Assembly (NCBI GenBank): GCA_946554335.1 | Contig: CAMNSA010000004.1 | Location: forward strand, 124,001 to 188,000 | Direction: 5' to 3' | DNA length: 64,000 bases | From: an uncultured Neglectibacter sp. | GTDB taxonomy: Bacteria > Bacillota > Clostridia > Oscillospirales > Acutalibacteraceae | In this document: positions 13,301 through 33,278 of the stretch, piece by piece | Layout: each line of letters opens with the position of its first letter | Position numbering within the stretch: the stretch's first letter is position 1 | The notes under the pieces: generated by a model | What the model saw: only the letters and a program-made list of their open reading frames with translations | What the model was told of the DNA's origin: nothing | The model's database searches: none | Translations under genes and position numbers: made by a program

Positions 13301-14359
13301 TCATACACCCAGCCGCTTCTCCATCACATCGTAATGAGCGCAGTACACCAAAGCCGTTTCCCGGGTGATCCTGCCCTCCCGGTAAAGCTTCAAAAGGCTT
13401 CCGTCCATAGTGCACATCCCCTCCGCCGCTCCCGCCTGCATGACGGAATCCAACTGGTGGAGCTTGTCCTCCCGGATCATATTCTGGATGGCGTTATTGG
13501 TCTTCATGATCTCAAACACCGGCAAAAGCTTTCCCTCTTTGTCCGGCACCAGCTGCTGGCACACCACGCCCTTGAGCAGCTGGGAAAGCTGGATCTTCAC
13601 CTGGTTCTGCTGATTGGCCGGGAACACATCCACGATCCGGCTGATGGTATTGGCGGCGCTTCCGGTGTGAAGGGTGCTGAACATCAGCACTCCGGTCTCC
13701 GTGGCGGTGATGGCGGCGGAAATCGTATCATAATCCCGCATTTCTCCCAGCAGGATCACATCCGGGCTCTCCCGCAGGGCGGAGCGCAGAGCCGCGGGGT
13801 ATCCCTGAACATCGATGGAAATCTCCCGCTGGGTGACGATGGCCTTCTCGTGGCGGTAGATGTATTCGATGGGGTCCTCCATGGTGATGATATGACAATC
13901 CCGGCTCTCATTGATGCGCTGGATCATGCAGGCCAGGGTGGTGGATTTTCCGGTGCCCACCGCGCCGGTCACCAGGATCAGTCCCTTCTGGTTTTCCGTC
14001 AGAGAAAGCACCTCTTCCGGGATCCCCAGCTCCTTGGGATCCGGCAGGCCGAACCGAATCAGCCGGATCACCGCCGCCAAAGAGCCGCGCTGGCGAAAAA
14101 TATTCACCCGAAACCTGCCTAATCCGGAGACGGCAAAGGAGAAATCATCATCCTTTCCCTCTGTGAGATGGGTCTCTTCCCGGCCGCTCAGGGCGTATAT
14201 CCCCTGAATCAGGCGCTGGGTGTCCTCCGGCATCAGCCGCTCCTGGCCCCAGCGGGACTGATGGCCCTTACACTTGACGGTAATGGGAAGCCCGGCAATC
14301 AAAAAGATGTCTGAAGCCTCCTGCCCGATAGCCTGCTGCAATACTTCCTGTATCTCCAT
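13301..14359 (-). CDS. pilT: PilT-like type IV pilus ATPase
   Basis: A 352-aa hexameric secretion ATPase of the PilT (retraction) type. Visible are the N-terminal PAS-like region with DFSFAVSGLGRFRVN, Walker A GAVGTGKST (132-140), the Asp box around IITMEDPIEY, Walker B VILLGEMRD (201-209), the His box STLHTGSAA and AIQNMIRED, close to the AIRNLIRE motif that marks PilT. No PilB/GspE is present nearby, so this protein may act alone on the PilC platform encoded upstream. The ATG at 14359 has GGAAGGA in front and was preferred over an upstream start. It is the last gene of the cluster. Confidence 0.92.
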   Translation of the reverse strand: MEIQEVLQQAIGQEASDIFLIAGLPITVKCKGHQSRWGQERLMPEDTQRLIQGIYALSGREETHLTEGKDDDFSFAVSGLGRFRVNIFRQRGSLAAVIRLIRFGLPDPKELGIPEEVLSLTENQKGLILVTGAVGTGKSTTLACMIQRINESRDCHIITMEDPIEYIYRHEKAIVTQREISIDVQGYPAALRSALRESPDVILLGEMRDYDTISAAITATETGVLMFSTLHTGSAANTISRIVDVFPANQQNQVKIQLSQLLKGVVCQQLVPDKEGKLLPVFEIMKTNNAIQNMIREDKLHQLDSVMQAGAAEGMCTMDGSLLKLYREGRITRETALVYCAHYDVMEKRLGV

Positions 14360-14404
14360 GGTTCCTTCCCTTTCCTCATAAACTTTCGTTCTCAAAGGCT
14401 GTTT

Positions 14405-14800
14405 TCACCGGAGAGCAGTTTCGTTTCCGCTCCACAGGCCGCCCATATTCTCATCGGCCTCCCAATCCCTGCTAAAGCGCCAGCTCACCACCTGACAGCT
14501 TTTTCCCTCTATCTTCAGACCGATCTGAAGGCTTAACTCCCCTTCCTGCAGGGTCTTCCGGTAAACGCCGTCCTCCGCTTCCTCCAAAAGGGCCTCAGGG
14601 TCCTCATAGGCTTCTTGCAAAAAGCTTTGCCCCCGGCTTTCCAGCAGATAGCGGGTCTCTACAGTCTGTGCATATTTCTCCGCCATGGAAAGATCAGCCC
14701 GGGCAGTTGTGAAGGTGAGGATCCCCAGCACAGTCATACAGATGGAGATCACCATCAAAAGCAGCGCCAGAGGGCCCAGGCGCATGGGGATCTGTTTCAT
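14405..14800 (-). CDS. Pseudopilin-like single-span protein (131 aa)
   Basis: A short cytoplasmic N-terminus, one membrane span at about 10-34 (PLALLLMVISICMTVLGILTF) and an extracellular region beginning with a long helix (DLSMAEKYAQTVETRYLLES). This is the plan of type IV pilin-like proteins, but the prepilin G-F-x-x-x-E cleavage site is absent. The ATG overlaps the previous stop as TGATG, with AAAGGAGGA upstream. It probably works with its three small neighbours on the PilC/PilT machine. No close family is recognised. Confidence 0.7.
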   Translation of the reverse strand: MKQIPMRLGPLALLLMVISICMTVLGILTFTTARADLSMAEKYAQTVETRYLLESRGQSFLQEAYEDPEALLEEAEDGVYRKTLQEGELSLQIGLKIEGKSCQVVSWRFSRDWEADENMGGLWSGNETALR

Positions 14801-15234
14801 CAGGCTTCCTCCTTTAAGTAGACTGCGGTATCCAGAGTATAAACGGGGCTTGCGTCCTCCTGCCAATAGACGGAGATCCTGGTTTTCGCAAGCCCTCCCT
14901 CCTGATCCCAGGTGGCGGTCACACGGAAATCCCCTTCAGAAGAGACCTCCATCCGCCTGTCAAACCAAGCCTCCAGCATCTTTTCCTCTCTGAGCCAATG
15001 AGCGCCTTCCCCCTCGCCCAAAAATTCCAGGAATTCCGCCGGGCTTTCGCTTGCGGAAAAAAGCTCTGCCGTATTTTCCGCAAGGCGCACCGCACGGGTC
15101 AGCACCTGGGCCCTGCCGCTTTGCCCCTTGGAGAGGGCAAACACCTGGGTCAGGGTGAGGATCACCGCCAGAAACACGGAGATCAGCCCTAAAAGCTCCA
15201 TATAAAACGCCGTGATGCGCTGATGTTTTCTCAT
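14800..15234 (-). CDS. Pseudopilin-like single-span protein (144 aa)
   Basis: N-terminal RKHQRITAFYMELLGLISVF, then a hydrophobic stretch to about 32 and an extracellular domain with a Trp- and Glu-rich middle (AHWLREEKMLEAWFDRRMEV). The Glu in AFYMELLG sits near the +5 glutamate of type IV pilins, but the residue before the expected cleavage point is not Gly. It overlaps both neighbours (ATGA upstream, TGATG downstream), so it is tightly coupled to the other small genes. Confidence 0.7.
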   Translation of the reverse strand: MRKHQRITAFYMELLGLISVFLAVILTLTQVFALSKGQSGRAQVLTRAVRLAENTAELFSASESPAEFLEFLGEGEGAHWLREEKMLEAWFDRRMEVSSEGDFRVTATWDQEGGLAKTRISVYWQEDASPVYTLDTAVYLKEEA

Positions 15235-15689
15235 ATTCCGCCCTCACTCCTTACGCGGAAAATTACCGTGCCCGCGTCTGTATGCACCCAAAAGGCGCCG
15301 GGGGTCTTCTCCTCTATTTCAAAGGTCTCTGTCTCTCCGATAACGGAGGCGTTCTTCGGATCCAGAGGGGCGGAGATCTTGCCGTAATCCTCTACAAGCT
15401 TTCCTTCGTGGCGGTAGATGCGCACCGCGTATTCCGCGGTTTCATCCGCTACCACCAGCGCCGTGGTCCCGTCCTCTTTCAAAACACGGACGGCCCCGGC
15501 GGCGTCGTTTGTCCGCGCGCAGGTGGACAGATAGCTTAAAAGCGCCCTCTCCCCGTTATTTCTGTTTTCGCTTTCCACTGCCTCCCGATAAATTCCCGCT
15601 CCGAACACGATCAGCACAAAAAAGCCCAGCAGGAACAATCCGGCGATTCCCAGGGTAAAGAAGGGGACAGGGGAACTTCTTCTCTTCAT
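15231..15689 (-). CDS. Single-span membrane protein of the PilC/PilT set (152 aa)
   Basis: Membrane span at about 9-31 (FFTLGIAGLFLLGFFVLIVF), then NRNNGERALLSYLSTCARTN and a beta-rich outer domain (GAVRVLKEDGTTALVVADE). The layout recalls DUF4860-type proteins that accompany GspF-like genes in Oscillospiraceae; that match is from memory and unconfirmed. It lies between the pilin-like 105-aa gene and the 144-aa gene, overlapping the latter by 4 bases. Confidence 0.68.
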   Translation of the reverse strand: MKRRSSPVPFFTLGIAGLFLLGFFVLIVFGAGIYREAVESENRNNGERALLSYLSTCARTNDAAGAVRVLKEDGTTALVVADETAEYAVRIYRHEGKLVEDYGKISAPLDPKNASVIGETETFEIEEKTPGAFWVHTDAGTVIFRVRSEGGI

Positions 15690-15727
15690 TGCTTTCTTCC
15701 TTTCCAGTCAAGGTCCTCCCGGGCTGC

Positions 15728-16045
15728 TTACGGCTTGCTGATCACCTGGATCTCCGGCGGCATATTGGAGGCAAAGGCACGGTAGATCACATAGAAATCC
15801 TCGCGGTTGATCTGCAGGCCATAGCTGTTTTCCAGATACTCAAGATCCGGCGGGTAGACTCCCTCCACCACATAGCACTGCGTGGCGCACCGCTCCACAG
15901 CCGCTTTAAGGGCGGTCGCTCCCTCCGCTCCCACATCCTCGCGGGAGTGCCTTTCCAGCCTCCACACAAAAAGCGACAGGGAAAGAAGGACGATCACTCC
16001 CAGCAAAGCCAGGGGCCAGCCGCGTTTTCTTTTGTCTGTATACAT
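15728..16045 (-). CDS. Type IV pilin-like protein (105 aa)
   Basis: A span at about 10-28 (WPLALLGVIVLLSLSLFVWR) followed by ALKAAVERCATQCYVVEG and VYPPDLEYLENSYGLQI. The latter closely resembles the alpha1-helix continuation and YPPSLDYLEENYGL-type motif of small Gram-positive major pilins, including the paired Cys. The prepilin peptidase site is missing (RGWPLALLG instead of G-FTLIE). It lies 14 bases after the PilC gene and is the best candidate for the pilin subunit of this reduced system. Confidence 0.72.
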   Translation of the reverse strand: MYTDKRKRGWPLALLGVIVLLSLSLFVWRLERHSREDVGAEGATALKAAVERCATQCYVVEGVYPPDLEYLENSYGLQINREDFYVIYRAFASNMPPEIQVISKP

Positions 16046-16058
16046 GGCGCGCTCCTTT

Positions 16059-17105
16059 TTATCCGATCGAGCTCATGATCCCCAACAGCGGCAGCATAAC
16101 GCTGAGCAGCGAGATCCCCACCGTTACCAGCAAAATTCCGGAAAGCAGCGGGTCGATCACCTCCACCAGGCGGTCCGCCAGGTTCACCGTATGTTCCTCC
16201 AGAAGGTCGGAGAGCCTTTCCAAAACGGATTCCAGGTTTCCGCTGCGCTCTCCCGCCAGCAGCATCCGGCCGTAGACCGGCTCAAACAGTTCTTCCTGAT
16301 AGGCGGCCTGGGCGATACCGTGGCCCTCCTCCAGGTGCTTCATGCACCGCTTAACCTTTTCCTCTACCGGCTTGCAGTCGATCATCGTGAGGCTTTTCGC
16401 CACGGCGATATCCTGCACCTCGCCGCTGGCTAAAAAGACGGACAATGCCATGGTGAAGCGGTAAGTACCCAGCTTCTCCAGGATCTCTCTGCACACCGGA
16501 AGCTTATACAGCACCCCTTCCACAAGGGGCCGCTTTTTGCTGTTCCAAAGCAGAAGCCCCAGGATCAGGGAAAGGGCCAGAACCACCATCACAATCAGCG
16601 CGGCCCAGCAGAAGCCATAAGCCCAGCCAATATACCGGTAGGCTGAAGAAGCCATACTTCCGGTGAGGCGGTTGTACACCTGGGTAAAGGCGGGCAGCAC
16701 CATCGTCAGCATCAACGCCAGCACCACGATGATCAGGATCAGCATGGCCGCGGGATAAGTGACCGCTCCCTTCAGCTTTTCCCCCATGGCCTTCTGCTCC
16801 CGATAATACCTGCTCAGGCGAAACAGCACATCCTCCAGGCGTCCGGAGCTTTCTCCCATCTCCACCATCTTCAGGGCATAGGAGGGGAAAATTCCGGAAG
16901 CTTCCATGGCAAAGGACAGGGAATTCCCCTCTTCCAGCGCTTTCTGCATCACCGCGAGGCCCGCTTCCAGGATCCCGTGACTCTTTTCACTTTCCCCATG
17001 CAGCAGGGAAACCGCCTCCTGCGTCTGGATCCCGGACTGGAGCATCATGGCCATGCTCTCGCAGAATGCGCTGATCCCCAATGTATCCAGCTTCTTCTTT
17101 TTCAC
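16059..17105 (-). CDS. pilC: Type II secretion F / PilC platform protein
   Basis: A 348-aa GspF/PilC-family inner membrane platform with the two duplicated GspF domains: FCESMAMMLQSGIQTQEAVS (about 12-32), then LEDVLFRLSRYYREQKAMGE and a span pair at about 120-190, and the second copy with YRFTMALSVFLASGEVQDIA and SGNLESVLERLSDLLEEH. A final span is at about 315-340. PilC couples an ATPase motor to pilin assembly or extraction. The GTG at 17105 with AGGTGG upstream was chosen; the in-frame sequence before it is a shadow of the upstream gene. Confidence 0.9.
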   Translation of the reverse strand: MKKKKLDTLGISAFCESMAMMLQSGIQTQEAVSLLHGESEKSHGILEAGLAVMQKALEEGNSLSFAMEASGIFPSYALKMVEMGESSGRLEDVLFRLSRYYREQKAMGEKLKGAVTYPAAMLILIIVVLALMLTMVLPAFTQVYNRLTGSMASSAYRYIGWAYGFCWAALIVMVVLALSLILGLLLWNSKKRPLVEGVLYKLPVCREILEKLGTYRFTMALSVFLASGEVQDIAVAKSLTMIDCKPVEEKVKRCMKHLEEGHGIAQAAYQEELFEPVYGRMLLAGERSGNLESVLERLSDLLEEHTVNLADRLVEVIDPLLSGILLVTVGISLLSVMLPLLGIMSSIG

Positions 17106-17119
17106 GCTGCCACCTGCTT

Positions 17120-18130
17120 TCAATAAAAATAGACATTGGCGTAGTTTTCTCCGTCGCCGATAAACTGCGCATCCGCTCCGTTGGCGGAAAAGGTGAGGTC
17201 CAGCCGGTTCCAGGTGTTGGATTCCACCTGGTATTCCACCGTGACCCACCCGCTTTCCTCAGTGTAGAACATATTCCAGGCATGGTACAGGTCGTTGGGC
17301 TGCACATAGCCGAACACCACCTTGACGGGGATCCCCTCACTGCGCAGCATGGCCGCCGCCAGGCTCGCGTAATCAAAGCAGATCCCCTTTCCGCTGGAAA
17401 GGGTCTCGTCCGGGTCCGGCAGATACCCGCTTGTCCCGGAAACAGCCTGGGCCTTCTCCTTGTCGTAGGTGATGTGCTGGCAGATATAGTCAAACACAGC
17501 CTCCACCACACCCAGGGCGTCCTCCTGCCCGGCGGCAAGCTTCTCCGCCTCCTTGACGCACTGAGAATCCCGGCTGTAGCTCACATATTCACTGGGGCGC
17601 AAAAAGGGCTGAAACTCGTCTTTGAGGGAGACCTCTTTGTCCGTGGAATACAGCACGGCATATTTTTCCGCCGTGATATTCTCCATGACCCGGAAGGTGT
17701 AGCTTCCGTCGCCGCATTGCAGGGGAAACACCGCGGGCTCTCCCCCGGAGGAAACATCATAGGTATAGGTGCTGTCTCCCATGAGCACCTGGAATTTCAA
17801 TCGTTTTTCTGACTGGGCCGAAACTCCCACATACCCCTCCTCTGTTTTGGAGAGGTCTAACAGGACCCCGTTTTCCCCCTGGGCCTCGCTTTCTTCAAAC
17901 ACCGCGTCTAAAAATTCCGGAGCCTGATAAGGGGTAAATTCCACCTGAGAGGCTGTGCCGGACTCTTCTGGCACAGGGGCGCTCTCTTCCTGAGGCGCGG
18001 CGCTTTGGGTCTGTGCCCTGCTTTCCGCCTTGGGAGGCGTTTGCTCCGGAAGAGGCTCCACGCTCGTTTGGCATCCCCACAGGCAAAGCAAAACGAGCGG
18101 CAAAAGCCACCGGATCTTTTTCCTCAGCAT
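17120..18130 (-). CDS. Transglutaminase-like lipoprotein
   Basis: A 336-aa exported protein. The signal peptide ends in the lipobox LCLWGC (Cys about 20), then a low-complexity Gln/Pro/Ser linker to about 65, a beta-rich domain and a C-terminal transglutaminase-like domain with catalytic Cys in GKGICFDYASLAA (about 251), His in LYHAWNMF (about 283) and a likely Asp in WNRLDL. Such domains can form isopeptide bonds or hydrolyse them. It is embedded between the class B sortase and PilC, so a role in crosslinking or trimming surface fibres is plausible. Confidence 0.87.
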   Translation of the reverse strand: MLRKKIRWLLPLVLLCLWGCQTSVEPLPEQTPPKAESRAQTQSAAPQEESAPVPEESGTASQVEFTPYQAPEFLDAVFEESEAQGENGVLLDLSKTEEGYVGVSAQSEKRLKFQVLMGDSTYTYDVSSGGEPAVFPLQCGDGSYTFRVMENITAEKYAVLYSTDKEVSLKDEFQPFLRPSEYVSYSRDSQCVKEAEKLAAGQEDALGVVEAVFDYICQHITYDKEKAQAVSGTSGYLPDPDETLSSGKGICFDYASLAAAMLRSEGIPVKVVFGYVQPNDLYHAWNMFYTEESGWVTVEYQVESNTWNRLDLTFSANGADAQFIGDGENYANVYFY

Positions 18131-18141
18131 GGAGCTCTCAC

Positions 18142-18933
18142 CTACTTCTCTACTTTGGATAGCTTTCCGTGCAAAACATACCTGGCGTCGTCAAACTCAT
18201 AGGCGCAGGTGGACAGCACCACATAGCGCCCGTCTCGTTCCAGAGGCACCTGTGCTGTGAAGTCGGACTGTGCCTTCGCTTTGGCAAGATAGTCCTCCAG
18301 CTGATCGCAGGGATTCCGGAAGATCGTGTAGGTATCGGAATAAGCGGAGGTAGTATAGCCGCTATACAGGGCGATCTTGTAATCCGCGTCCGGGGTCAGC
18401 AGCCACATCACAGAATGTTTCTCAAAATAGGCCTGATCCTCCCAGTCCTCCAGCCTGGAGAACATGGAGCCGTCGCTCATGGAGTGGCCGTAGATCACGG
18501 TATTGGAGTCCCGGAAGATCTCGGCGCTTTGCGCGTCCATAAAAACAGCGCCCGAGCGGATCTCCTGCCGGTCGTAGCTGTGGGAAAGATAATAGAGATT
18601 GTCCTCCCCGTGCATCACGGGATAATTGAGATTGGTCCCCTCGCAGTATAGCCACCCCACCACCTCGGGGTTCACCTTCTGTAAGGCGGTAAAATCCACA
18701 GAAATAGGGGCCGCCGCCTCCTCCTGGGAGGGAACAGCGTCCCCCTGTTTTTCGCTTTGAGCGCTCGAAGCCGGCGCCTGACTCTCTTTTTTTGCCGTAT
18801 AGCTTTCCGCCGCTTGATGATAGATCTCCCGGCTTTTCCCATAGCGAAGCTGAGTGGTTACAATCGTGCCTCCTGCTCCGAAAAAGACCACCAGCAATAA
18901 AACCAGCACGATCCATTTCAGTTTCTTTCTCAT
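18142..18933 (-). CDS. srtB: Class B sortase
   Basis: A 263-aa membrane-anchored transpeptidase: N-terminal span at about 6-26, an Ala/Ser/Gln linker to about 75, and a SrtB fold with VGWLYCEGTNLNYPVMHGED, catalytic His in VIYGHSM (about 150), Cys243 in VLSTCAYEF and Arg251 in DDARYV. Class B sortases attach specific substrates with NPxTN-like signals. The likely substrate is the KTGDDTN-tailed protein at 20443-21180. It sits 42 bases after the SipW-type peptidase and 11 before the transglutaminase-like gene. Confidence 0.93.
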   Translation of the reverse strand: MRKKLKWIVLVLLLVVFFGAGGTIVTTQLRYGKSREIYHQAAESYTAKKESQAPASSAQSEKQGDAVPSQEEAAAPISVDFTALQKVNPEVVGWLYCEGTNLNYPVMHGEDNLYYLSHSYDRQEIRSGAVFMDAQSAEIFRDSNTVIYGHSMSDGSMFSRLEDWEDQAYFEKHSVMWLLTPDADYKIALYSGYTTSAYSDTYTIFRNPCDQLEDYLAKAKAQSDFTAQVPLERDGRYVVLSTCAYEFDDARYVLHGKLSKVEK

Positions 18934-18975
18934 GCTCTCGTTTCTCCGTTTTCAGGAAATGATTGACCGCCTCTC

Positions 18976-19470
18976 TCAGCGAGCCCGGTCCCGCAAGCGT
19001 CCCGCCAGCAAATTCAGCATCGCTCCGCAGGCGGCAAAGCAGATGACATAGACCTTTCCTATCGTGCTGGAGTACAGCATCAAAATGCTGCCCAAAAAGG
19101 GAATATGCCGCTCTACCCGGCCGATCAGCCGGTCATAGGGGACCGCGTTCATATCCGCTTCCTCGTTGGCGTCCCCCTTGGTGACGAACTCTCCTTCCAC
19201 AATGCGATTCTCAACCACCCGATGGGTGACCACCGAATCCCGGCTCCAAAAGGCGACGACATCGCCCTCTTCCATCTCTTCCGGCTGTGCCTCGGACACA
19301 TAGATCACGCTTCCCACCGGGATCTCCGGCTCCATGCTGCCGCTGACCACATTGTAGATCTCATACCCCATCAGGCGGGGTACGGTCACCGGAAGACAGG
19401 AGGCGATCACCAGCAGCAGGATGAGGATCCCCAGGACATTACAAAAAGCCGGAATGATCTTTTTTCTCAT
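18976..19470 (-). CDS. sipW: Signal peptidase I, SipW type
   Basis: A 164-aa archaeal/ER-type signal peptidase: N-terminal span, catalytic Ser in VVSGSMEPEIPVGS, the His (instead of Lys) in VVTHRVVE, and acid residues in TKGDANEEAD, with a C-terminal span at about 130-155. SipW processes TasA/camelysin-type substrates; three such candidates are encoded just upstream in the same operon. It overlaps the preceding gene by 4 bases (ATGA). Confidence 0.9.
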   Translation of the reverse strand: MRKKIIPAFCNVLGILILLLVIASCLPVTVPRLMGYEIYNVVSGSMEPEIPVGSVIYVSEAQPEEMEEGDVVAFWSRDSVVTHRVVENRIVEGEFVTKGDANEEADMNAVPYDRLIGRVERHIPFLGSILMLYSSTIGKVYVICFAACGAMLNLLAGRLRDRAR

Positions 19471-20372
19471 TCTTTCTGCTCCTTTTTATAGAACAGCAGG
19501 ATCCAAAGTCCCAGGCACAGCACGCTTAAAAGCACCGCGCTGCCCAGGATCTTCGCCCAAAGAGGCATGGCGTTCCAGAACATGACGCCGTCCGCTACCA
19601 GAGACTTGGGCTGATCGCCGCCCGGGAAGTTGACCAGAGGGGTATTAGGTTCATCGATGTCGATCACTTCCGCCGGACCATTGTTCTCCTCGGGGGGAGT
19701 GACAGGGGTGGGGTTATCGGGAATGACCACGGGCCCCGGCTCATCGCCCTCTACCACAGTGGCGCCGCCGCCCAGAACGGTCACTTCTTCCTCTGCCGCG
19801 CCGGCTTCAGCTGCGGAATAGAGGAAGGTGAACACATTCTTGGATGCGTCCGCCACCAGCGTTTTCGTGAGATTATAACTCTGGGGCTGATAGCCTTCGA
19901 TATAGAGATAGGCGATCATGGGCTTGTCGCCCACATTGCCGTAATAGGTCTCGCTGGGGGCCAGAGTTTCGCCCTCGGCAGTCTCATAATTCACGGTATA
20001 CTCTACCATATCGCCCATCAGACCATAAGCCACCACAAAGTCCTGATCCTTGGTGACTACAAAAGAGGAGGATGAGCCCCGGGCAACGCCCTGGACCTCT
20101 TCCGTGCCCTTCCCGCTTTCCAGGAAGCCCTTCACATAATATTTGCTGCCGTCTTCCAAAGTCACCAGATTGGGGGAAAAGCTGACGCGCCCGCCATAGG
20201 ATACCTCCGGAAACTCCAGCACAGAGGAGCCATCCTCAAAATGGCCCTGCCCCCCGGCGTAAAGACGGATCCGATAAGTGTACGCTTTTCCCTTGGCCTG
20301 CGCCGTCAGAGAGAAGGAGCAGACTAAAGCAAGGAGCAGGAAAAGACTCAAAAACTTTCTTCCCAGTTTCAT
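19467..20372 (-). CDS. Surface protein with MucBP-like repeats and C-terminal span
   Basis: A 301-aa exported protein: signal peptide (FLSLFLLLALVCSFSLTAQA), a beta-rich domain, then VEYTVNYETAEGETLAPSET and SYNLTKTLVADASKNVFTFL, which resemble a MucBP repeat, a Pro/Glu-rich stalk at about 210-250 and a C-terminal span (ILGSAVLLSVLCLGLWILLF) ending KKEQKE. No LPxTG motif is visible before the span, so it is either membrane-held or carries an unusual sorting signal. The ATG at 20372 was preferred over the one 9 bases earlier by spacing to GAGGA. Confidence 0.75.
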   Translation of the reverse strand: MKLGRKFLSLFLLLALVCSFSLTAQAKGKAYTYRIRLYAGGQGHFEDGSSVLEFPEVSYGGRVSFSPNLVTLEDGSKYYVKGFLESGKGTEEVQGVARGSSSSFVVTKDQDFVVAYGLMGDMVEYTVNYETAEGETLAPSETYYGNVGDKPMIAYLYIEGYQPQSYNLTKTLVADASKNVFTFLYSAAEAGAAEEEVTVLGGGATVVEGDEPGPVVIPDNPTPVTPPEENNGPAEVIDIDEPNTPLVNFPGGDQPKSLVADGVMFWNAMPLWAKILGSAVLLSVLCLGLWILLFYKKEQKE

Positions 20373-20442
20373 ATCTATCATTCCTCATTTCTATCTCTCG
20401 CAGAGGCCCTCTCAGAGGGAGGCCTCTCTCAAGGGCAAAGCG

Positions 20443-21180: not shown

Positions 21181-21194
21181 CACTGTTTACTCCT

Positions 21195-24604: not shown

Positions 24605-26161
24605 TCAGCTTCTGCTCATGCGCCGCTTGGCAAACAGCAGCACGCCTGCGCCTACCACCAGAACACCGCCTACCACATAGAAGATCGTGGTGCCGATGCC
24701 GCCGGTGCTGGGCAGGGTGGCGCCGGACTTGTTGATGATGGTCAGCGCGGTACCGTCGAGGTTCTCAACGGGAGTGGTATTCTCCCCGTCTATGCTCTCA
24801 CTTTCCACATCTGCTGTGGTCATAGTGATATCGGCATTGGGCACATCGGTATCTTCGGTGAGTACTGCTTCGATGGTGATTGTCTTATCCGGGCAGGTGT
24901 TGTAGCCTTGGGGAGTGGTGGACTCCTTGAGCACATAGTCTCCTGCGGCCAGGCCGGCGAAGTTAAACTCACCGGTACCCTCAGCAGAAACAATCTCAGT
25001 CAGAATCTCCTCTTCCGTTGCATCGGGGAACACTTTCTCACTATACAGCACATAGATGCCGTTTACCAGCACAAACTGCAAAGCGGTATCGCCCTGATAC
25101 AGGGTAAAGCCCGCGCCGGCCAGAATGTCGCCGTCAGCACTGTTGATTTTCTTGGTGCCGTCCAGCTTGAAGGTGTAGACAAAGGCCTTGTCTTCCGTGG
25201 TGTCGCCGGTAGGAGTACCCGCAGGATCCCCAGTGTAGGTAGGATCGTTGGAATAGGTGAGCTTAGCGCCGTTGGCGTTGTCAGTAGGGCCGTCGGCATT
25301 TGTCATGGTGGCCTTCTCATTGAGGTGAGCGTTGTAGGTCACCACGACATTCATCGCGGTTCCCCAAGCCTCTCCCGCAATGGGAACCACATCAGCGATC
25401 TCCACAGTGAGGGTGGTGATACCGGTGTCCTCAGCGGTAACACTGTTAGCCGTATACTGCTCCGCTGTCAGCCTGGTGCCGCCCACCATCACAGAATCAA
25501 TGTTTTCAAAGGTGATACCCGCGGACATGGTGTCGGTGAACACCAGCTTGTAGCTGTCGTACAGGGCAAGGTTGCCTCCGGGCAGAGCAGCGGTCAGCTG
25601 GAACTGGAAGGTTTCACCCACATTGTGGTCAGCCACATCGCTCCAATTCTCGCCGTCCTGCACCGTTTTGTCCAGGGTGGGCTGGTCAGCCTTGGGGGTG
25701 ATGTTCACATTGCCGACCACTTCTACCATATAGGCGGAATAGGAATCGCCCGTCCCTACATTCTCAGTCATATCCTTAATGAGATAGTAGCCTGCGGCAA
25801 GTCCGGACAGCTTGTAGTTGTTCGCAGCGTTCAGTTCGCCACTGTCCACGGTCATGTCCGCCGCATGATCCTTGGCAAAGGTCTCTGCTCCGTTTTCTGC
25901 CAGCTCCTCCAGCTCCTCAGCGGGAACTGCCTGGCCCTCTGTTCCGTAGCCGGAGTTGCCATACACTACATTGGAAAGCTTTCCGTCAGAGGACAGGTCA
26001 CCGGTAAACACCTGGTAAACCTTGTAAACATGGCCCTCCTGGGGGGAGTTCATGGTGATCTCATAAGTAGGCTCTGTGTCTGTTGCGAGGGCAGGAAGCG
26101 CCACCAGCAGACCAAGAGCGAGCACCATAACCACCGCCATCAATTTCTTCATGGTCTTCAT
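24605..26161 (-). CDS. Major pilin, isopeptide-forming fimbrial protein
   Basis: A 518-aa pilin with signal peptide (to about 26), an N-terminal pilin domain (HVYKVYQVFTGDLSSDG, then YKLSGLAAGYYLIKDMT), an isopeptide-forming middle domain (about 165-310), a CnaB-like domain with the E-box-like sequence LAAGDYVLKESTTPQGYN (about 415) and a C-terminal sorting signal LPSTGG, span and RRMSRS tail. Class C sortase downstream should polymerise it. Upstream of the ATG is AAAGGAAA. This is the main fibre subunit of the cluster. Confidence 0.92.
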   Translation of the reverse strand: MKTMKKLMAVVMVLALGLLVALPALATDTEPTYEITMNSPQEGHVYKVYQVFTGDLSSDGKLSNVVYGNSGYGTEGQAVPAEELEELAENGAETFAKDHAADMTVDSGELNAANNYKLSGLAAGYYLIKDMTENVGTGDSYSAYMVEVVGNVNITPKADQPTLDKTVQDGENWSDVADHNVGETFQFQLTAALPGGNLALYDSYKLVFTDTMSAGITFENIDSVMVGGTRLTAEQYTANSVTAEDTGITTLTVEIADVVPIAGEAWGTAMNVVVTYNAHLNEKATMTNADGPTDNANGAKLTYSNDPTYTGDPAGTPTGDTTEDKAFVYTFKLDGTKKINSADGDILAGAGFTLYQGDTALQFVLVNGIYVLYSEKVFPDATEEEILTEIVSAEGTGEFNFAGLAAGDYVLKESTTPQGYNTCPDKTITIEAVLTEDTDVPNADITMTTADVESESIDGENTTPVENLDGTALTIINKSGATLPSTGGIGTTIFYVVGGVLVVGAGVLLFAKRRMSRS

Positions 26162-26307: not shown

Positions 26308-26904
26308 TCAGATCGTTCCCAAGCCCTTTAAGGGCCAGACTCGGAAGAAAAGCTTCCCCACCACCAGGTCTTTTTCCACCGTGCCCAGCGCGGTGTTTCT
26401 GCTGTCAATGGAGGTTTCCCGGTTGTCCCCGATCACAAACAGCTCTTCATTGGGCACTTTACAGGGAAAGTCGATATTACATTCTCCCAAGGCTTTCTGG
26501 GTGAGATAGGGCTCTGAAAGCTTCACGCCGTTTACCACCACGGTGCCGTCCTCCTCCAGACTGACGGAATCCCCTGAAACAGCTATCACTCGCTTCACCA
26601 GCAGGGTGTTGTTGTGGTAGAACGCCACAATGTCTCCGGGACGGTAGTCCTGAAAGCTGGTGGCGATGACCACATCACCGTTTTCCAGGGTTTCCGCCAT
26701 GGAGTCGCCCTTGATTTGCAGCACGGGGAACATCAGCACTGCCGCGATCACCGCTGCCGCGGTCACCACCACCAGGGTGAAAACCGTGGTTCTGAGCACC
26801 TGACGGAACTCTCTTTTTCTGTTTTCCTTTTTTAGTTCAATTTCTACCTGTGAAACCGTGGGCAGATCCTGTATCTCAACTTTTGCAGGTCCTTTCTTTT
26901 TCAT
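26308..26904 (-). CDS. lepB: Signal peptidase I (second LepB-type in the cluster)
   Basis: A 198-aa type I signal peptidase: N-terminal cytoplasmic segment, one span at about 36-58, catalytic Ser in IKGDSMAETLENGD (about 65), general base Lys in NTLLVKRVIAVSGDS (about 104), and the C-terminal box VIGDNRETSIDSR. Located directly before the major pilin, it is probably devoted to pilin processing. It closely resembles the first peptidase of the cluster (32298-32912), including the YRPGDIVAFYHNN segment, so the two look like a duplication. Confidence 0.92.
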   Translation of the reverse strand: MKKKGPAKVEIQDLPTVSQVEIELKKENRKREFRQVLRTTVFTLVVVTAAAVIAAVLMFPVLQIKGDSMAETLENGDVVIATSFQDYRPGDIVAFYHNNTLLVKRVIAVSGDSVSLEEDGTVVVNGVKLSEPYLTQKALGECNIDFPCKVPNEELFVIGDNRETSIDSRNTALGTVEKDLVVGKLFFRVWPLKGLGTI

Positions 26905-26937: not shown

Positions 26938-27522
26938 TCAGCGCTTTTTCGCCATTTTTTTGGGCAGGGACATCTTGCTTTTCGGCTGCATCTTCCCGCC
27001 TATCACCTGAACGACCTCCATCACCTGAACCGAAGCCTCAGATGAGGCCTGAGAATTCTCCTGTTTGGAAGTACCGGTTTCTTCCTCTTCTCTTATCGAC
27101 TCCTTTTTCTCTTCCTTGCTCTCTTCTATCTTTTCTTCTGGCTCCTCCTTAGGCTCTCCTTTTGCCTGCTCTTCCGGCTGCTCCTTGGACTCTTCTCCCT
27201 TGGGCTTTGCCCCTTCCTGCTCCGGATGGCGGCCCTCCGCCATGGGCGAGATCTCCAGAAGCTCGCTGAGCTGTGCAGGAGAGGGGGCCAAAGAGGGATC
27301 CACCTTATCAATTTGCTCTCTGAGGGCATTGCGAAGCTTCAGGATGCGGATATCCTTGTCATCCAGTCTGTGCTTCAAGCGTTCATAGCCCTCTTCCAGC
27401 TCCGAAAGCTTCTGCTGCGTCTCCTTGAGAGACTGCTTTGCCTCTTCCGCTTCCCTTGCCTGGGCAAGCAGCAGCTGCAAAAGCTCTCTTCGTCCTAACT
27501 TGTGCAGTTCTTTATCCGTCAA
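26938..27522 (-). CDS. Coiled-coil protein of the pilus cluster
   Basis: A 194-aa protein: an N-terminal coiled coil (LGRRELLQLLLAQAREAEEA, then KLSELEEGYERLKHRLDDKD), a Glu/Lys-rich disordered middle (about 90-160) and a Val/Lys-rich C-terminus (VMEVVQVIGGKMQPKSKMSL). No signal peptide. Similar coiled-coil proteins occur next to pilin genes in clostridia, with no proven function. Translation seems to start at TTG 27522, 6 bases after AAAGGGAGAC. Its own promoter lies at 27572-27600. Confidence 0.7.
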   Translation of the reverse strand: MTDKELHKLGRRELLQLLLAQAREAEEAKQSLKETQQKLSELEEGYERLKHRLDDKDIRILKLRNALREQIDKVDPSLAPSPAQLSELLEISPMAEGRHPEQEGAKPKGEESKEQPEEQAKGEPKEEPEEKIEESKEEKKESIREEEETGTSKQENSQASSEASVQVMEVVQVIGGKMQPKSKMSLPKKMAKKR

Positions 27523-27600: not shown

Positions 27601-27723
27601 GTGGGCGCTGCCAAAGCAGCATACCGGAAAGCGCCGCCGGAGGTGCAGAAAGCCGAAGCCCCGGGAGAAGGCCCCTTCCGCCATGCGGTGGAGGCCTTCG
27701 CTCCCGGCGTTCTGATTTCAGCT

Positions 27724-30700
27724 TTATTCCGCCCAGTACGGCCTTTTTCTCAGGCGGAGGATCACAAGCACGCCGCCCAGCAAAAGCAGCGCCGTCCCCG
27801 CCCCTATACCGTACCAAACGCCCGGCCCGCCGGTCTTGGGCAGCTCATAGGCAAGGTACTCGTTGGAAACGCTTACCAGCTGCGCCTCATTCGAGGTAGG
27901 CGTCACAATAACGCCCTCCACCTTCGCTAACTCATCCGCACCCGGCGTCACAGTTGTCACATCGCCGGTAAAGACAGAAGTGTATTCATAATCTGTCTTC
28001 CCAGTGGTCAACTGCAACTCGCCGTTGGGAAGCTCCGTCTTTCCCGTCACCACATTCTTTATCTCGGCGATGGTGTATTTAGTGCCCACCGGCAGGTGGT
28101 TAATCTCAATATACTCGCCATGCTTCAAAGTGATATAGGCGCCGTTATAGACCTCGGAATTTTCCAGAAGGAAGTATTCTCCATCTCCGCCGGAGCCGTC
28201 CGGATTGTTGGGGCTGTATTTCACATAGTTATAGTCGTCCGCCAGCTGATTGCCGTCCTTGTCAGTCAGGGTGAGCTGGAACACAAACTCTTCGCCGTTG
28301 TCATAGGCGTCTCGTTCTTTCTCCTCCTGGCCGTTCATGATGATCCGCTCAAGCTGTTTTTCCAGCCTCAGGCTGCCGAAATCGGAATCCTTTAAGGGGC
28401 CGGCAAGGTCGCCGCTGTAAACAGAGGGAAGGGTGAACTGCATCCAGCAGGTAGAGCCGGAAGCGCCGCGCTCCGTATAGCAGAAATCCAGACGATATTT
28501 GGAGGCTGAATGTGCCTTGGTCTGAGCGTTGTGAGGAATATAATCCCAAAGGTCCACATACTCGCCCTGGGAGGTATGCACGCCGCCGATATCGCAGACC
28601 AGCTGCTGGCCGCTGCCCGTGGCGTTGCCGTTCTTGTCGATTTCTGTCAGGAACACCCACATATCGTCGTCGCCGAAGAACATGTACTCCAGAGGACCTA
28701 CATACTCTTCCACCAAATCAAAGGTGACATAGTAATGCATACCGAAATAGTTATTGTGGTCCGCGCCGTCGTCAGCCTTAGGCAGATTACCCGGACTACC
28801 AGCACCGCTGAATTTCCGCAGACTTTCTCGCGTGTAATCGCCAAATGCTAGGTCCTTCGCGTACAGGGCGGAATCCAAGGGCCAGAAGTTATTGGTCCAG
28901 GTGGAAGTATGGGTTGTGCTGCCGCATGTGGGGTTATATAAACGCTCCAGGCTGCTTGCCCCGCCCGCGCCTTCCACACTGGCGGTGGAAAGAGTATAGG
29001 TATCTCCCACGCGGGTGAAGGACAAGCTGCCGGGGTAGTAGGTTTTCCCCTTGGTTTCCACAGAGGCATTTAGGAAGCCGTCCGGTCCGGAAATTCCATC
29101 GGAGAAGGTGATATTCCCGCTGGTATCCACGCCGCTGACCATTCCGAAGGTACACTTTCCATAGCTGATATCTGCTGTTCCCCAACCGCCTACGCGGTTG
29201 GCCATATTGATTGCATTGTTCACGCCGGCATTCTGCCATCTCTCATCCTTCAGGCCGGTGCCGGTATTGGCGTTGCCGAAGCCGTACTTTGCACCGCTGC
29301 CGCTGTAATTTCCGGCGGAGTTGATCCCCTGGCGGTTGGTTTTCATCGTACCGTCTGTCTTCCCCTTAAAATCTACGGAGTTGATATCGTAATCAAAGAA
29401 ACTGGTGGGGGAACTGAAGGTACCGGAAAGGGGCTCATAGATCAGCCGGATATTCGCGCCATCCTGGATATAGATGCAGTCGTTGGCCTGAGACTCCGGA
29501 CGGTTGGTAAAATGGATCTTTCTGCAATCCGAAACGGCTTTATCAGGCGTTACCCCCTTATAGGCCTCGCCATACACTACCCAATCGCTTCTGTTTGAGC
29601 TGTCAGCGGACTTGCCGTCCTTCAGGATCCAGATCTGCCTCAGGCGGAAGGAATACTGGTTGTTGTCGTCTACAGCAGAGTTGGTCAGGGCGTCAAAATA
29701 CTTCAGATTGGGCTTTTCAAAATAGCTGCAGTCCTCGCTGCGGTAGATCTCTGTCAGGGTATTCTGCGTACGCATTGTGCCGTCAGAATTCAGCCCCAGG
29801 GAGAAGGTGGGCAGATTGGTATTGCCGTTTACCGGCAGATTTCCTCCGCGCGTATCGATCAGCGGGATGGTACTGCCGTCTTTCCGCACGGTATCCAGGT
29901 AGGAATAATACTGTACCTTGAAATGAGGATTGACATGAGTGCTGGAAATCAGGCCGAAGGTGCTCGCCTCCTGCCCGGCGCTCTTTGCCATCACACTCAT
30001 TCCCGCTCCGTCCTCTTCGGAGCCTACCTGATAGGCGGACGCCGCGCAAATCTCACCGGATCCTTCGGAAAATTCCTCCTCTGCAAGTCCCAGAAGAGTT
30101 TCATCTTCCTCCGCACTTTCCTCCCGGCGCGTCGTATAAATGCGCTCATCTATATGGAAGCCGGGCGTTTGAGGCTCGCTGCTCCCCGTCCCGTCAGAGG
30201 GGACCAGAGCGGTGATCAGCACGCCTCCGGATTCGACTTCAGATTTGATATTGGAGGCTTTTTCCTCCTTGAGGGCCTCTTCCTCCGCCTCTTTTGCTTT
30301 CTCCTCCAGCTCCTGCTTGGAGGTGATGGTGACGCTCACAGAGCAAAGAGTCATATCCAGCTCATGTCCGTAATAATACAAGCGGTAAGAGAACACCTCC
30401 AGGGGAAGCAGCTCCTTCTCCCGGTCCTCCAGCTTGACGAATTCAGCATAGCGCAGGTAGTCCTCTGCCTCCTGAGACAGGGGCTCTACGATAAAGGTCA
30501 GAGGCTGAGAGGGGTCATAAGTGAGGCCAGTGTTGGCGGGCAGCGTCTCGGCGCCGGTGATCTCCACCGCGGAGGGCGTCTGCGCATCATTGGAAGCGGC
30601 GCTATCCTCCGCTTCATCATTCACCGGCAAAGAGGTTTCTTCCCCGGAAACGGCGGAAGCTTCCTCCGCACCGCTCAAGGTATCATCAGACAGCCCCGAG

Positions 30701-32235
30701 GAGGTGTTTTCCTCCTGAGAGGCTTCCAAAGAGGAATTATCCTCCGAGGAATTATCCTCCGAGGAAGCGTCCCCCTGCGTCAAGGCTTTCCCGTCGGCGC
30801 TTTCTCCGGCGCCCTCCGGCTGTGACAGAACGCTGTGTTCCTCCGCGGCCGAAACGGTCTCCGCATTTTGGGCAGACCCTTTGGGCACGGCTACGCCGGA
30901 CACATGGAATTCCATGTGGAACAGGGGATCCTCATCATAGGCAAAGGACTGAGAGATCTGCAGGGATTCCGGCAGTTCCACGCTTGCCAAGGGGGCGGAA
31001 GAGGAAGTCCCTTCCTCCGGGTTTTCCGCCGCGGCGCCGCCAAAGGCCACCAGGGCCGGAGCGTCCAGCCTGAGGCTGTAGGCGCCGTCCTCGGCCTTTG
31101 CAAGCTCCAGAACCTGCGCCTTGGGGGATGCCTCTGAAGCGTCCTCCTGTCCTTCGGAAATCATCACCGCCGTTAACGCCTCCTGCGGCTTTAAGGGTTC
31201 AATAATAAGCTGTACCGGAGAGGCAAAGGGCTCTCCCTCCGTCTCGCTGATAAAGCTGAGCTTCATAAGCGACAGCAGCTCAAACGTCTCGTCCCCCGCC
31301 GCTTCCCGAAGCTGATCCTTTCCGGCAAGAAGCTGCTCTTCGCCCGAAATATCTTCAAAACCCAGCAGCGTCTTTTCCGGAAGAGGCTTCTCGCACCGAG
31401 CGGTGATCTTCAACTGATCGTTTTCGTACAGGGTCACCGCGGCGTCCGGCTCCTCCTCCGGAGAAACGCCGGAAACGGAGGATTCCTCCTTGTCCCGGGG
31501 AACGTTTACCATGCACTCGTCGCCGTGGACATGCTTTTTGACTTCCAGAAGTCCGCACTGCAAAACGGGCTCGCCGCTTTCATCTGTCACCTTGTTCCCG
31601 TTTTCGTCCAGATAACAGCTCTCGTCATGGGTGTGCAGAATCACCTCGGGCTTCTCGCACACCAGAACCTTCTGCTCCGTATAGCAGTCATCCCCATGGG
31701 TATGAGCGCCCTCACCCTCTTCCAGCGTGCAGATGAGGGTCTTTTCATAGCACTCCTCTGTGTGGGTATGCTCTTCGCTTTCCTCCAAACCGCAGATGAG
31801 GACCTGCTCATAACACTCGTCCGTGTGGACATGTCCTTCGCTTTCGGGGATGGTGCAGGCAAGCTCTCTGCGGGTCTCATAACATTCGTCTGTATGCTTA
31901 TGCTCCTTGACTTCCGGCAGGGTGCATACCAGCTCGCCTTCCTTATTGTAGCAGGCCTCGTTGTGCTCATGCGCCACAAAATCGGCGTAGCCGCAGGACA
32001 GGACCTTCTCTCCCTCCGGCGTTTGGGTATAGCACGCCTCCGTATGCTGATGTACAGGCTCTCTTTCCAGGATGCAGCTGAGCTTCAGCTGGTTCATGGC
32101 GCGGCCGTTCATGCGCAAAGCGACTCCCGTTCCCACCACGACTATCAATGCCAAACAGGCAAACACCGCCATTCTTCTATGGCGTTTCTTCTGCTCCGAT
32201 AAAATTTCTGCAGCCTGCTTTTTGGGAGATTCCAT
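27724..32235 (-). CDS. Giant LPKTG-anchored surface protein with His/Cys repeats
   Basis: A 1503-aa surface protein. An N-terminal span (about 22-44) is followed by eight tandem repeats with H-x-H-x(3)-C-Y (such as EEHTHTEECYEK), each followed by a second Cys (about 60-245). Next come a Ser/Glu-rich region (about 250-700) and a large central domain with no clear family. A fibro-slime-like domain follows at about 1150-1270 (EYMFFGDDDMWVFLTEID). A CnaB-like domain and LPKTGG (about 1464), span and tail end the protein. It is probably the pilus tip or major adhesin. The ATG at 32235 follows AAGGAGG. Confidence 0.9.
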   Translation of the reverse strand: MESPKKQAAEILSEQKKRHRRMAVFACLALIVVVGTGVALRMNGRAMNQLKLSCILEREPVHQHTEACYTQTPEGEKVLSCGYADFVAHEHNEACYNKEGELVCTLPEVKEHKHTDECYETRRELACTIPESEGHVHTDECYEQVLICGLEESEEHTHTEECYEKTLICTLEEGEGAHTHGDDCYTEQKVLVCEKPEVILHTHDESCYLDENGNKVTDESGEPVLQCGLLEVKKHVHGDECMVNVPRDKEESSVSGVSPEEEPDAAVTLYENDQLKITARCEKPLPEKTLLGFEDISGEEQLLAGKDQLREAAGDETFELLSLMKLSFISETEGEPFASPVQLIIEPLKPQEALTAVMISEGQEDASEASPKAQVLELAKAEDGAYSLRLDAPALVAFGGAAAENPEEGTSSSAPLASVELPESLQISQSFAYDEDPLFHMEFHVSGVAVPKGSAQNAETVSAAEEHSVLSQPEGAGESADGKALTQGDASSEDNSSEDNSSLEASQEENTSSGLSDDTLSGAEEASAVSGEETSLPVNDEAEDSAASNDAQTPSAVEITGAETLPANTGLTYDPSQPLTFIVEPLSQEAEDYLRYAEFVKLEDREKELLPLEVFSYRLYYYGHELDMTLCSVSVTITSKQELEEKAKEAEEEALKEEKASNIKSEVESGGVLITALVPSDGTGSSEPQTPGFHIDERIYTTRREESAEEDETLLGLAEEEFSEGSGEICAASAYQVGSEEDGAGMSVMAKSAGQEASTFGLISSTHVNPHFKVQYYSYLDTVRKDGSTIPLIDTRGGNLPVNGNTNLPTFSLGLNSDGTMRTQNTLTEIYRSEDCSYFEKPNLKYFDALTNSAVDDNNQYSFRLRQIWILKDGKSADSSNRSDWVVYGEAYKGVTPDKAVSDCRKIHFTNRPESQANDCIYIQDGANIRLIYEPLSGTFSSPTSFFDYDINSVDFKGKTDGTMKTNRQGINSAGNYSGSGAKYGFGNANTGTGLKDERWQNAGVNNAINMANRVGGWGTADISYGKCTFGMVSGVDTSGNITFSDGISGPDGFLNASVETKGKTYYPGSLSFTRVGDTYTLSTASVEGAGGASSLERLYNPTCGSTTHTSTWTNNFWPLDSALYAKDLAFGDYTRESLRKFSGAGSPGNLPKADDGADHNNYFGMHYYVTFDLVEEYVGPLEYMFFGDDDMWVFLTEIDKNGNATGSGQQLVCDIGGVHTSQGEYVDLWDYIPHNAQTKAHSASKYRLDFCYTERGASGSTCWMQFTLPSVYSGDLAGPLKDSDFGSLRLEKQLERIIMNGQEEKERDAYDNGEEFVFQLTLTDKDGNQLADDYNYVKYSPNNPDGSGGDGEYFLLENSEVYNGAYITLKHGEYIEINHLPVGTKYTIAEIKNVVTGKTELPNGELQLTTGKTDYEYTSVFTGDVTTVTPGADELAKVEGVIVTPTSNEAQLVSVSNEYLAYELPKTGGPGVWYGIGAGTALLLLGGVLVILRLRKRPYWAE

Positions 32236-32297
32236 TGTGCTGCCTCCTTCCCCCAGATCCATTTCTATATCTTAACTTCAGTTAAACTCAGTTAGTT

Positions 32298-32912
32298 TCA
32301 CGCTGTTCCCATCTTGGAAAATTCCTGCTCAGAGCCCAGGATCCTTCCCAGGCGGTTTAACGGCCAGATCCGCAGAACCACCCGTCCCAAGATCATTTCA
32401 TTGCTCACGCACCCTACAGCGGCATGACGGCTGTCGATGCTGGCTGAGCGGTGATCGCCCAATACAAAATACTGGCCGGCCGGAACCTCATAGGGAAATT
32501 TCACATCACAGCTTCCTCTGGCCTTTTCTTCTAAATAAGGCTCCTCCAGAAGCTGGCCGTTGCGGTACACGGCCCCGTCTTCGTCTATATTGATCTGGTC
32601 TCCGCCGATGGCTACTACCCGCTTGATCACCACGCTGTTGTTGTGGTAAAAGGCGATCACATCCCCCGGCATATACTCCCCGCGGCTCACGGTGATGGTC
32701 ACATCGCCCGTCTGCAAATTGGGGGTCATGGAAGTGCCGTCGATCTGCACCACAGGAAACAGAAATACGACTATCAAAACCACCGCCGCCGCCACCACGG
32801 AAAGGAAGAACACTGTGTTGCGCAGAATAATGCGGCGGTTGTGCTTATCCTGCTCTATCTTCAATTCGCGCTCCAGCTGTTCCACTGTAGGGCGCTTTTC
32901 AGAAGCCTCCAT
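32298..32912 (-). CDS. lepB: Signal peptidase I (first gene of the surface cluster)
   Basis: A 204-aa type I signal peptidase: N-terminal span at about 31-54, catalytic Ser in IDGTSMTPNLQTGD, Lys in NNSVVIKRVVAIGGD and the C-terminal VLGDHRSASIDSRHAAVG box. It leads the cluster, behind the strong promoter at 33250-33278 and a leader of about 330 bases. It probably matures the giant surface protein encoded 62 bases downstream. The ATG at 32912 (spacing from AGAAGG) was preferred over the GTG 9 bases before it. Confidence 0.92.
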   Translation of the reverse strand: MEASEKRPTVEQLERELKIEQDKHNRRIILRNTVFFLSVVAAAVVLIVVFLFPVVQIDGTSMTPNLQTGDVTITVSRGEYMPGDVIAFYHNNSVVIKRVVAIGGDQINIDEDGAVYRNGQLLEEPYLEEKARGSCDVKFPYEVPAGQYFVLGDHRSASIDSRHAAVGCVSNEMILGRVVLRIWPLNRLGRILGSEQEFSKMGTA

Positions 32913-33249
32913 GAAAAACACCTTCTGCCCGCCCCTTCCGGGAAGCCGATTTCAAGGGGACGGCTTTCACAGGAGCTGATACCATCTATTCATACGATCA
33001 CGGTCGTAAAATCATTTCTCAAAATGCCCGAGAGCAGTCCAGCCTGACAGAAAACCCCTTCGTCTCAGGTCTATCCCATCAAAGGATAATCCGAGAAAAA
33101 GGGGGCTTGTTTCAAGAGAAAGCGCGCCATTTCATTCATTTTCAGGGGAAACAGCGACTCCTTCATTTTCCGCCGCAAGGTAAAAATCGGTGCGCAAACA
33201 TGCCCTCTTTCAGATCGCAGGTTCAAAAGAAGACTAATTTTCATTTTCC
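32913..33249 (-). other. Long 5' leader of the surface cluster
   Basis: About 330 bases between the promoter and the first start codon. A 57-codon open frame at 33071-33244 starts exactly at the predicted transcription start and has no ribosome binding site, so it is not called. No recognised riboswitch is seen. The length suggests post-transcriptional control. Confidence 0.5.
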
Positions 33250-33278
33250 ATTATATTCTCTGGCTTCGGAATTGTCAA
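33250..33278 (-). promoter_or_regulatory. Strong sigma-A promoter of the surface cluster
   Basis: Consensus TTGACA (33273-33278), 17-bp spacer and TATAAT (33250-33255) on the minus strand, one of the best matches in the window. Confidence 0.85.

Follow-up and report, generated by a model that had tools for sequence, protein, structure and literature searches.

Organization of the gene run

The window analysed here, a stretch of 64,000 nucleotides from contig CAMNSA010000004.1 of an uncultured Neglectibacter sp., carries on its minus strand a run of 20 open reading frames (ORFs), called within the window and all in one direction, from position 32921 to position 13301 (Table 1). An earlier note on this DNA had described a 20-gene leftward surface cluster fusing a sortase pilus, SipW-type fibre proteins and a reduced type IV pilus-like machine. 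Twenty ORFs of the kinds described are indeed present; the extent given, 13301..33278, corresponds to the run, except that its end at 33278 lies about 360 bases beyond the start of the first gene. The run consists of two separately inherited modules placed end to end: an upstream block of sortase, SipW and TasA-like genes, and a core of seven genes in the order TGase-PilC-sm1-sm2-sm3-sm4-PilT, where TGase is transglutaminase-like and sm1 to sm4 are small membrane proteins. The gene counts in the host, in its relatives and in genomes of its order (see below) indicate that this core persists in genomes where neither an A24 prepilin peptidase nor an extension motor is detected.

Intergenic distances were computed with corrected starts for PilC (17105) and SrtC (24398). 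The last 15 genes, from SrtC to PilT, are separated by -4 to 61 bases; upstream of SrtC three wider gaps of 146 to 206 bases occur. A terminator scan of the run listed no terminator-like site in the SrtB-TGase-PilC junctions, and weak consensus matches sit within TGase. The terminator-like matches total 25 against a mean of 19.6 (standard deviation 4.4) in shuffled sequences, which is near chance.

Table 1. Genes of the minus-strand run, listed in the direction of reading. TM, transmembrane segment.
Gene or product	Coordinates	Strand	Evidence
Signal peptidase I (SP1)	32298..32921	-	PF10502 E 1.5e-34; TIGR02227 123 bits
Giant 1512-aa LPKTGG surface protein	27724..32262	-	DUF7601; near-cut-off fibro-slime domain
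Coiled-coil, charged protein, role unassigned	26938..27522	-	sequence features
Signal peptidase I (SP2)	26308..26904	-	signal peptidase I models
Major pilin, isopeptide domains, LPSTGG anchor	24605..26161	-	GramPos_pilinBB 2.6e-18; TIGR04226 74 bits
Class C sortase (SrtC)	23526..24398	-	NF033745 265 bits, cut-off 160; ATG start 24398
Minor pilin-like protein, first gene of five-gene unit	22478..23503	-	DUF5979
TasA1, TasA/BsaA-like	21953..22462	-	TIGR04090 26 bits, below cut-off 60
TasA2, TasA/BsaA-like	21195..21956	-	TIGR04090 34 bits, below cut-off 60
TasA3, secreted, sorting-signal-like end	20443..21183	-	VKTGDD + TM + basic tail
MucBP-like protein, C-terminal TM	19467..20381	-	PF06458 16.4 bits, below cut-off 23
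SipW-type signal peptidase	18976..19470	-	TIGR02228 95.6 bits, cut-off 51.85
Class B sortase (SrtB)	18142..18933	-	TIGR03064 183 bits, cut-off 153.75
TGase, transglutaminase-like, probable lipoprotein; first gene of core module	17120..18130	-	PF01841 3.8e-23
PilC platform protein, GTG start 17105	16059..17105	-	PF00482 5.2e-36, two stretches; start from family alignment
sm1, 105 aa, predicted pilin fold, leader MYxD	15728..16045	-	
sm2, DUF4860 protein (PF16152), predicted GspJ-like pilin fold	15231..15689	-	
sm3, pilin-like; putative former class III signal with invariant Glu at its position 5 and Thr in place of Gly-1	14800..15234	-	
sm4, single-span, starts LGPLALLL after short leader; fourth pilin-like gene by position	14405..14800	-	
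PilT-type ATPase	13301..14359	-	TIGR01420 401 bits, cut-off 319.1; PDB PilT 2gsz 339 bits

A conserved seven-gene core module

PilC, PilT and four small single-span proteins are present as described in the earlier note, with the T2SSF domain found in two stretches of PilC and the ATPase assigned to the PilT/PilU family. Conservation was followed in two sets: 80 PilC-bearing loci, which are the best 80 of 83 and, being close relatives, form a biased set, and 297 genomes sampled evenly from the order of the host, of which 60 contain sm1 (59 sm1 loci besides the window were fetched). TGase was found in 79 of the 80 loci, PilC in 80, sm1 in 79, sm2 in 78, sm3 in 78, sm4 in 77 and PilT in 76. All seven genes occur together in 75 loci, and their order and strand are never violated. 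The dN/dS values of the seven genes, obtained from six pairs that we chose, lie between 0.016 and 0.36, which indicates that all of them are under purifying selection.

The transglutaminase-like lipoprotein placed by the earlier note at the join of the systems has the Transglut_core domain and lies where stated; its lipobox is atypical (LWGC) and the gene belongs to the PilC/PilT module, as its near-constant presence in the loci shows. Of 130 family members, 129 conserve the Cys motif, 128 conserve the His motif, and 71 show a lipobox pattern. In PilT, the Walker A motif and the motif GE[MIL][RK][DT] are present in all 123 long sequences, and 98 of them have an AIxNxIRE-like motif, which serves retraction. 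Against PDB chains this protein scores up to 339 bits with PilT and 83 bits with PilB; the ComGA model reaches 133.5 bits for a cut-off of 300, whereas the PilT model passes.

Small proteins probably related to pilins

The predicted models of sm1 and sm2 show a type IV pilin fold, and DUF4860, the family to which sm2 belongs, appears to consist of GspJ-like pilins. With Foldseek, neither model matched anything at E<=0.001 (a second look at them with VIA-align is not a search), and profile searches of sm1 to sm4 against PDB sequences gave no match at E<=1 for any of the four. Pfam scans made member by member yielded scattered weak matches, for example to Pilin_N in 4 of 80 sm1 proteins and to PilX_N in 1 of 52 sm4 proteins; the sm4 protein of the window matched no family in profile scans. 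The leader motif MYxD of sm1 is found in 70 of the 80 loci, window included, and in 4 of the 59 order loci, and is therefore clade-specific.

The sm3 family has an invariant Glu (E13 of the alignment), relatives keep the motif SGLFLIELL, and one of them passes PF07963. In the clade of the window the Glu of the class III signal is kept and Gly-1 is not, and some relatives keep both. Judged by these residues, sm3 appears to retain a degenerate prepilin signal, a remnant of class III. The conservation of Gly-1 does not clearly track the presence of a peptidase: it is kept in 9 of 26 sm3 proteins from genomes with a peptidase, in 4 of 25 from genomes without, and in 1 of 3 from genomes with weak matches. 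Outlying sm3 proteins reach ComGE and GspI models below cut-off. The best explanation is that at least three of the four small membrane proteins are pilin-derived. Polymerising pilins use the Glu, which is absent from sm1, sm2 and sm4.

No detected prepilin peptidase or extension ATPase

The host genome, 99.39% complete, gave no match to the A24 prepilin peptidase (PF01478) at E<=1, and the same model found matches in 12 of 14 control genomes. With the T2SSE model (PF00437) two matches were obtained in the host: the PilT of the window and one of 22.8 bits, under the cut-off of 24.9. PilT is thus the sole T2SSE ATPase of this genome over cut-off, and none of the extension type (PilB, GspE, ComGA or TadA) was found. 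The earlier note, which called this part reduced, had missed that the peptidase and the extension ATPase are lacking genome-wide.

The same pattern recurs among 50 relatives, for which completeness is not given. Twenty of them have no PF01478 match at 0.01 and a single T2SSE match each. A 21st single-ATPase relative (G032) has as its only PF01478 match one of 17 bits with four stops, and the remaining 29 have a PF01478 match together with two or more T2SSE matches. For the 60 order genomes with sm1, PF01478 is absent in 29, over cut-off in 28 and weak only in three. The peptidase-free genomes contain one T2SSE match in 22 cases, none in four and two in three, and 27 of the 28 peptidase-bearing genomes contain two or more. 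One genome assembled as a single contig (G188) has one T2SSE match and no A24 match.

The sortase/SipW/TasA block

The best explanation for the upstream block (SrtC, pilins, three TasA-like proteins, MucBP-like protein, SipW, SrtB) is that it exports and wall-anchors surface fibres, and it is of a known kind. As expected of a sortase pilus, a class C sortase accompanies an LPxTG major pilin with isopeptide domains; together with the Gram_pos_anchor match and the giant LPKTG protein, whose fibro-slime match (42.1 bits) is just under the cut-off of 45, this agrees with the sortase pilus of the earlier note. Its SipW-type peptidase and class B sortase were likewise recovered; the peptidase passes TIGR02228 and scores 89.5 bits with the SipW-specific model NF046067, for a cut-off of 190. 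As to the three SipW/TasA-like substrates it proposed, two match BsaA below cut-off, and the third has no match and ends in a sorting-signal-like sequence; of 35 members of the TasA3 family, 29 have TG[DE] within their final 70 residues.

The five-gene unit minorPilin-TasA1-TasA2-TasA3-MucBP is found in linked and in most unlinked blocks. It is kept together across the 19 unlinked or split loci that were read, except L245 (genome G314), where TasA3 and MucBP are unrecognised, and L239, where the minorPilin match is non-adjacent. One 489-aa ORF (L036:7483-8949) has matches to SipW as well as to class B sortase and is an apparent SipW-SrtB fusion. No match to the coiled-coil gene 26938-27522 appeared among the 80 loci at E<=1e-3, but their sequence extends no further than 10,064 bases upstream of PilC, which makes this absence uninformative. 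The N-terminal part of a signal peptidase (L021:2032-2775) weakly resembles the coiled-coil protein (E 0.005), in a fused arrangement.

Elsewhere in the window, positions 1-10000 have a GC content of 0.46-0.49, against 0.53-0.60 in the rest, with a tRNA-Val at 1843-1919; this part is possibly a foreign stretch.

Linkage between the block and the core module

In the neighbourhood comparison that the earlier note had itself set as a refuting test, the PilC/PilT part is usually not linked to the sortase/SipW part. The TasA-MucBP-SipW run lies next to TGase in only 14 of the 66 loci whose upstream sequence spans 2 kb or more (L001, L003, L010, L020, L021, L023, L033, L036, L042, L047, L049, L059, L071 and L073), and the proposal of one three-part machine does not hold in general. 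Three short contigs (L007, L008, L013) have SipW or SrtB at their edge, L057 and L069 have SipW and SrtB matches further away, and L052 has only sortase- and signal-peptidase-like ORFs and no TasA genes. The junction recurs in records titled Neglectibacter, Acutalibacter, Lachnospiraceae and Eubacterium and in one metagenome-assembled genome of Erysipelotrichaceae. Of the 51 loci of the order sample with 2 kb upstream, two, both from the genus of the host, have the block next to the module, as does the window. In G174 the block, with SrtB-TGase as its last genes, lies close to a contig end, and PilC lies at a different contig end, which suggests that the two are linked there as well.

The TasA2 family (A5) was counted at a strict cut (E<1e-50) chosen after the results were seen: it occurs in 5 of the 297 order genomes, of which four carry the module, and in 2 of 398 phylum genomes (search limited to 1e-20), both with the module. 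The genome of the window is counted in both tallies and two others share its genus; in all, six distinct survey genomes have such a match, five of them with the module. At E<=1e-5, 15 order genomes have a match; 7 of these carry the module, compared with 60 among all 297 (p 0.016). A strong TasA2 match was present in 30 of the 50 relatives, including 16 of the 33 lacking an adjacent block. G321, from the same genus, has neither an sm1 nor a TasA2-family match and is a natural double negative.

The tree built from 139 PilC proteins groups every block-bearing row into a single clade of 79, with the Erysipelotrichaceae row outermost. The block label needs eight changes on this tree, partial loci included; the tree is a quick one with long branches and cannot separate gain from loss. 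In the order sample, that clade is represented by the window, G202, G292 and G174; all four have a strong TasA2 match, which is found in none of the other module genomes of the sample.

Eight order loci from other genera have a sortase gene outside the block that adjoins the module on the same strand. SrtB-like genes follow PilT in L154 (4-base overlap), L161 (1-base overlap), L158 and L165 (13 bases), and one precedes PilC in L179 (overlap); SrtC-like genes follow PilT in L190 (4-base overlap) and precede TGase in L181 (4-base overlap) and L150 (195 bases). A scripted listing of the 48 order loci with 1.5 kb on both sides gave seven of these eight, without L190, plus L143. Since the same profiles match, these sortases may be relocated relatives. 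A functional tie of the module to sortase substrates is likely, though not obligatory.

Interpretation and alternative explanations

We favour, with a probability of about 0.45, a reading in which the run joins a fibre block to a seven-gene core derived from type 4 filament (T4F) systems and devoid of peptidase and extension ATPase, where an uncut pilin bundle is worked by PilT and PilC on wall-anchored fibres. This reading starts from the gene order, the families, the predicted folds of sm1 and sm2, the sm3 remnant, the PilT motifs and the genome absences; from these we infer the steps that follow. The four small proteins would keep their cytoplasmic leaders and, because only sm3 has the Glu, could not polymerise into a normal long pilus. 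They would form a short bundle held by PilC, which PilT would turn or pull in ATP cycles, and the uncut leaders (MYxD in the sm1 of this clade) could touch the motor directly. Outside the cell, the bundle and the transglutaminase-like protein would act on wall-anchored sortase substrates by positioning, tensioning or sensing the fibres. At a little under even odds, a T4F lineage would then have dispensed with prepilin peptidase and extension motor, kept uncut pilins with PilT as sole engine, and been recruited more than once to sortase-built fibres, as a new architecture of the superfamily that is not a pilus. The main anomaly weighing against this reading is genus g31 (L187, L198-L201), which keeps PilC and pilin-like genes and in which TGase and PilT were not found; four of its five genomes have no T2SSE match at all.

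A pseudopilus of the type II secretion system (T2SS) or Com kind, extruding or threading fibre subunits through the thick wall with PilT as a two-way motor, is unlikely. A PilC gene with small pilin-like genes lined up behind it resembles com and T2SS clusters, the GspJ-like sm2 and the below-cut-off ComGE/GspI matches of outlying sm3 proteins point the same way, and secreted TasA-like proteins are encoded alongside. An excerpt of PMC11300603 describes the single ATPase of Tad as driving both directions. However, the TasA block is missing from most module genomes of the order sample, the motor belongs to the PilT family and not to the extension ATPases, and three of the four small proteins lack the Glu.

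It is rather doubtful that the pilin complex only senses the state of the surface or of the fibre and signals to regulators, with no mechanical part in fibre building. In 27 of the 61 loci with 2 kb downstream, PilT is directly followed by a BTAD-type regulator (c13), behind which there is often a 166-aa protein that matches nothing in Pfam (noted for L074:11033-12277 and L024:15145-15642); the regulator is found somewhere in 19 of the 59 order loci, the same pair stands beside one unlinked TasA block (L232), and Hpt and GGDEF genes lie near the module in other loci. In excerpts of PMC7395162, deletion of the type IV pilin gene pilA2 of Clostridium perfringens turns sipW-bsaA on in the whole population. 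Against such a sensor, no BTAD regulator was found in the run of the window or in the loci of its own genus (L143, L145), and a sensor alone has no obvious need for a transglutaminase-like enzyme.

A variant of the Com pilus for DNA uptake, with PilT replacing ComGA, is improbable. ComEC was detected in 32 of the 34 genomes in which it was sought, 33 of which bear the module, but its presence fails to discriminate, as it also occurs in G321, which has no module. The Com pilus, which an excerpt of PMC10191384 describes as one major and four minor pilins with a platform, uses a peptidase and an extension ATPase, not found here, and the TGase and sortase neighbours would be left unexplained.

The obligate three-part machine of the earlier note, for which the tight spacing, the junction recurring across families and the TasA2 family tracking one PilC clade can be invoked, has very little probability: 52 of the 66 loci have the module without an adjacent block, strong TasA2 matches lie elsewhere in many genomes without one, and G314 has a strong TasA2 match and no sm1 match. 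Least credible is a decaying remnant of a type IV pilus: the missing peptidase and extension ATPase, the degenerate class III signals and the further losses of g31 speak for it, but in the main clade it is contradicted by the dN/dS values, the gene order intact in 80 loci and the PilT motifs.

Comparison with known systems

In the open-licence PubMed Central (PMC) literature, we found no description of PilT and PilC combined with SipW and sortases, no paper describing the PilC/PilT/TGase module, no mention of DUF4860, and nothing on PilT, PilC and transglutaminase in a gut Ruminococc context; among the matches listed for PilT without PilB, no title or abstract start describes this arrangement. 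A conserved machine lacking prepilin peptidase and extension motor in many hosts would make the action of PilT and PilC alone, and the need of pilins for cutting, directly testable. A fold can also be proposed for DUF4860, as can a candidate motor for the sortase-fibre clusters of gut Clostridia.

The block resembles sortase-assembled pili of the SpaH/EbpB type in its class C sortase, LPSTG isopeptide major pilin, large LPKTG protein and signal peptidase genes. It differs from them in being joined to SipW/TasA genes, and the SpaH/EbpB subfamily model remains below cut-off (75 versus 95 bits). With the sipW-bsaABC operon of C. perfringens and its flanking srtB, as excerpted from PMC7395162, it shares a SipW-type peptidase, TasA/BsaA-like proteins and a nearby class B sortase gene; the control of that operon by the type IV pilin PilA2 is a further likeness. 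The window differs in adding class C sortase pilus genes, three TasA-like genes within a five-gene unit and the PilC/PilT core, and BsaA polymers are reported there to form without SrtB.

Excerpts of PMC10191384 define the T4F superfamily by four core proteins, and a 2023 review states that every T4F system has both a prepilin peptidase and an extension motor. Loci without peptidase are known for MSH, in genomes whose other systems encode one that the MSH loci may borrow (PMC6668835); a passage of PMC4471445 names Nanoarchaeota as the only group without a detected peptidase, and PilD, PilB, PilC and PilT genes are described in a gut bacterium (PMC8726730). Of the T4F core proteins, the platform PilC/GspF is present in the window. 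The module shares with the superfamily, and especially with the Com pilus and the T2SS pseudopilus, this platform, a row of membrane proteins with predicted pilin fold and an ATPase of the PilT/PilB superfamily. Its ATPase is of PilT type, unlike that of the Com pilus (ComGA, no PilT), and stands as the only one over cut-off in the genome, unlike the PilB and PilT pair of type IVa pili. The module thus differs from T4F systems by the A24 peptidase and extension ATPase not found in the genome, by PilT as sole motor, by small proteins with no standard cleavage site, and by a transglutaminase-like protein as its near-constant partner.

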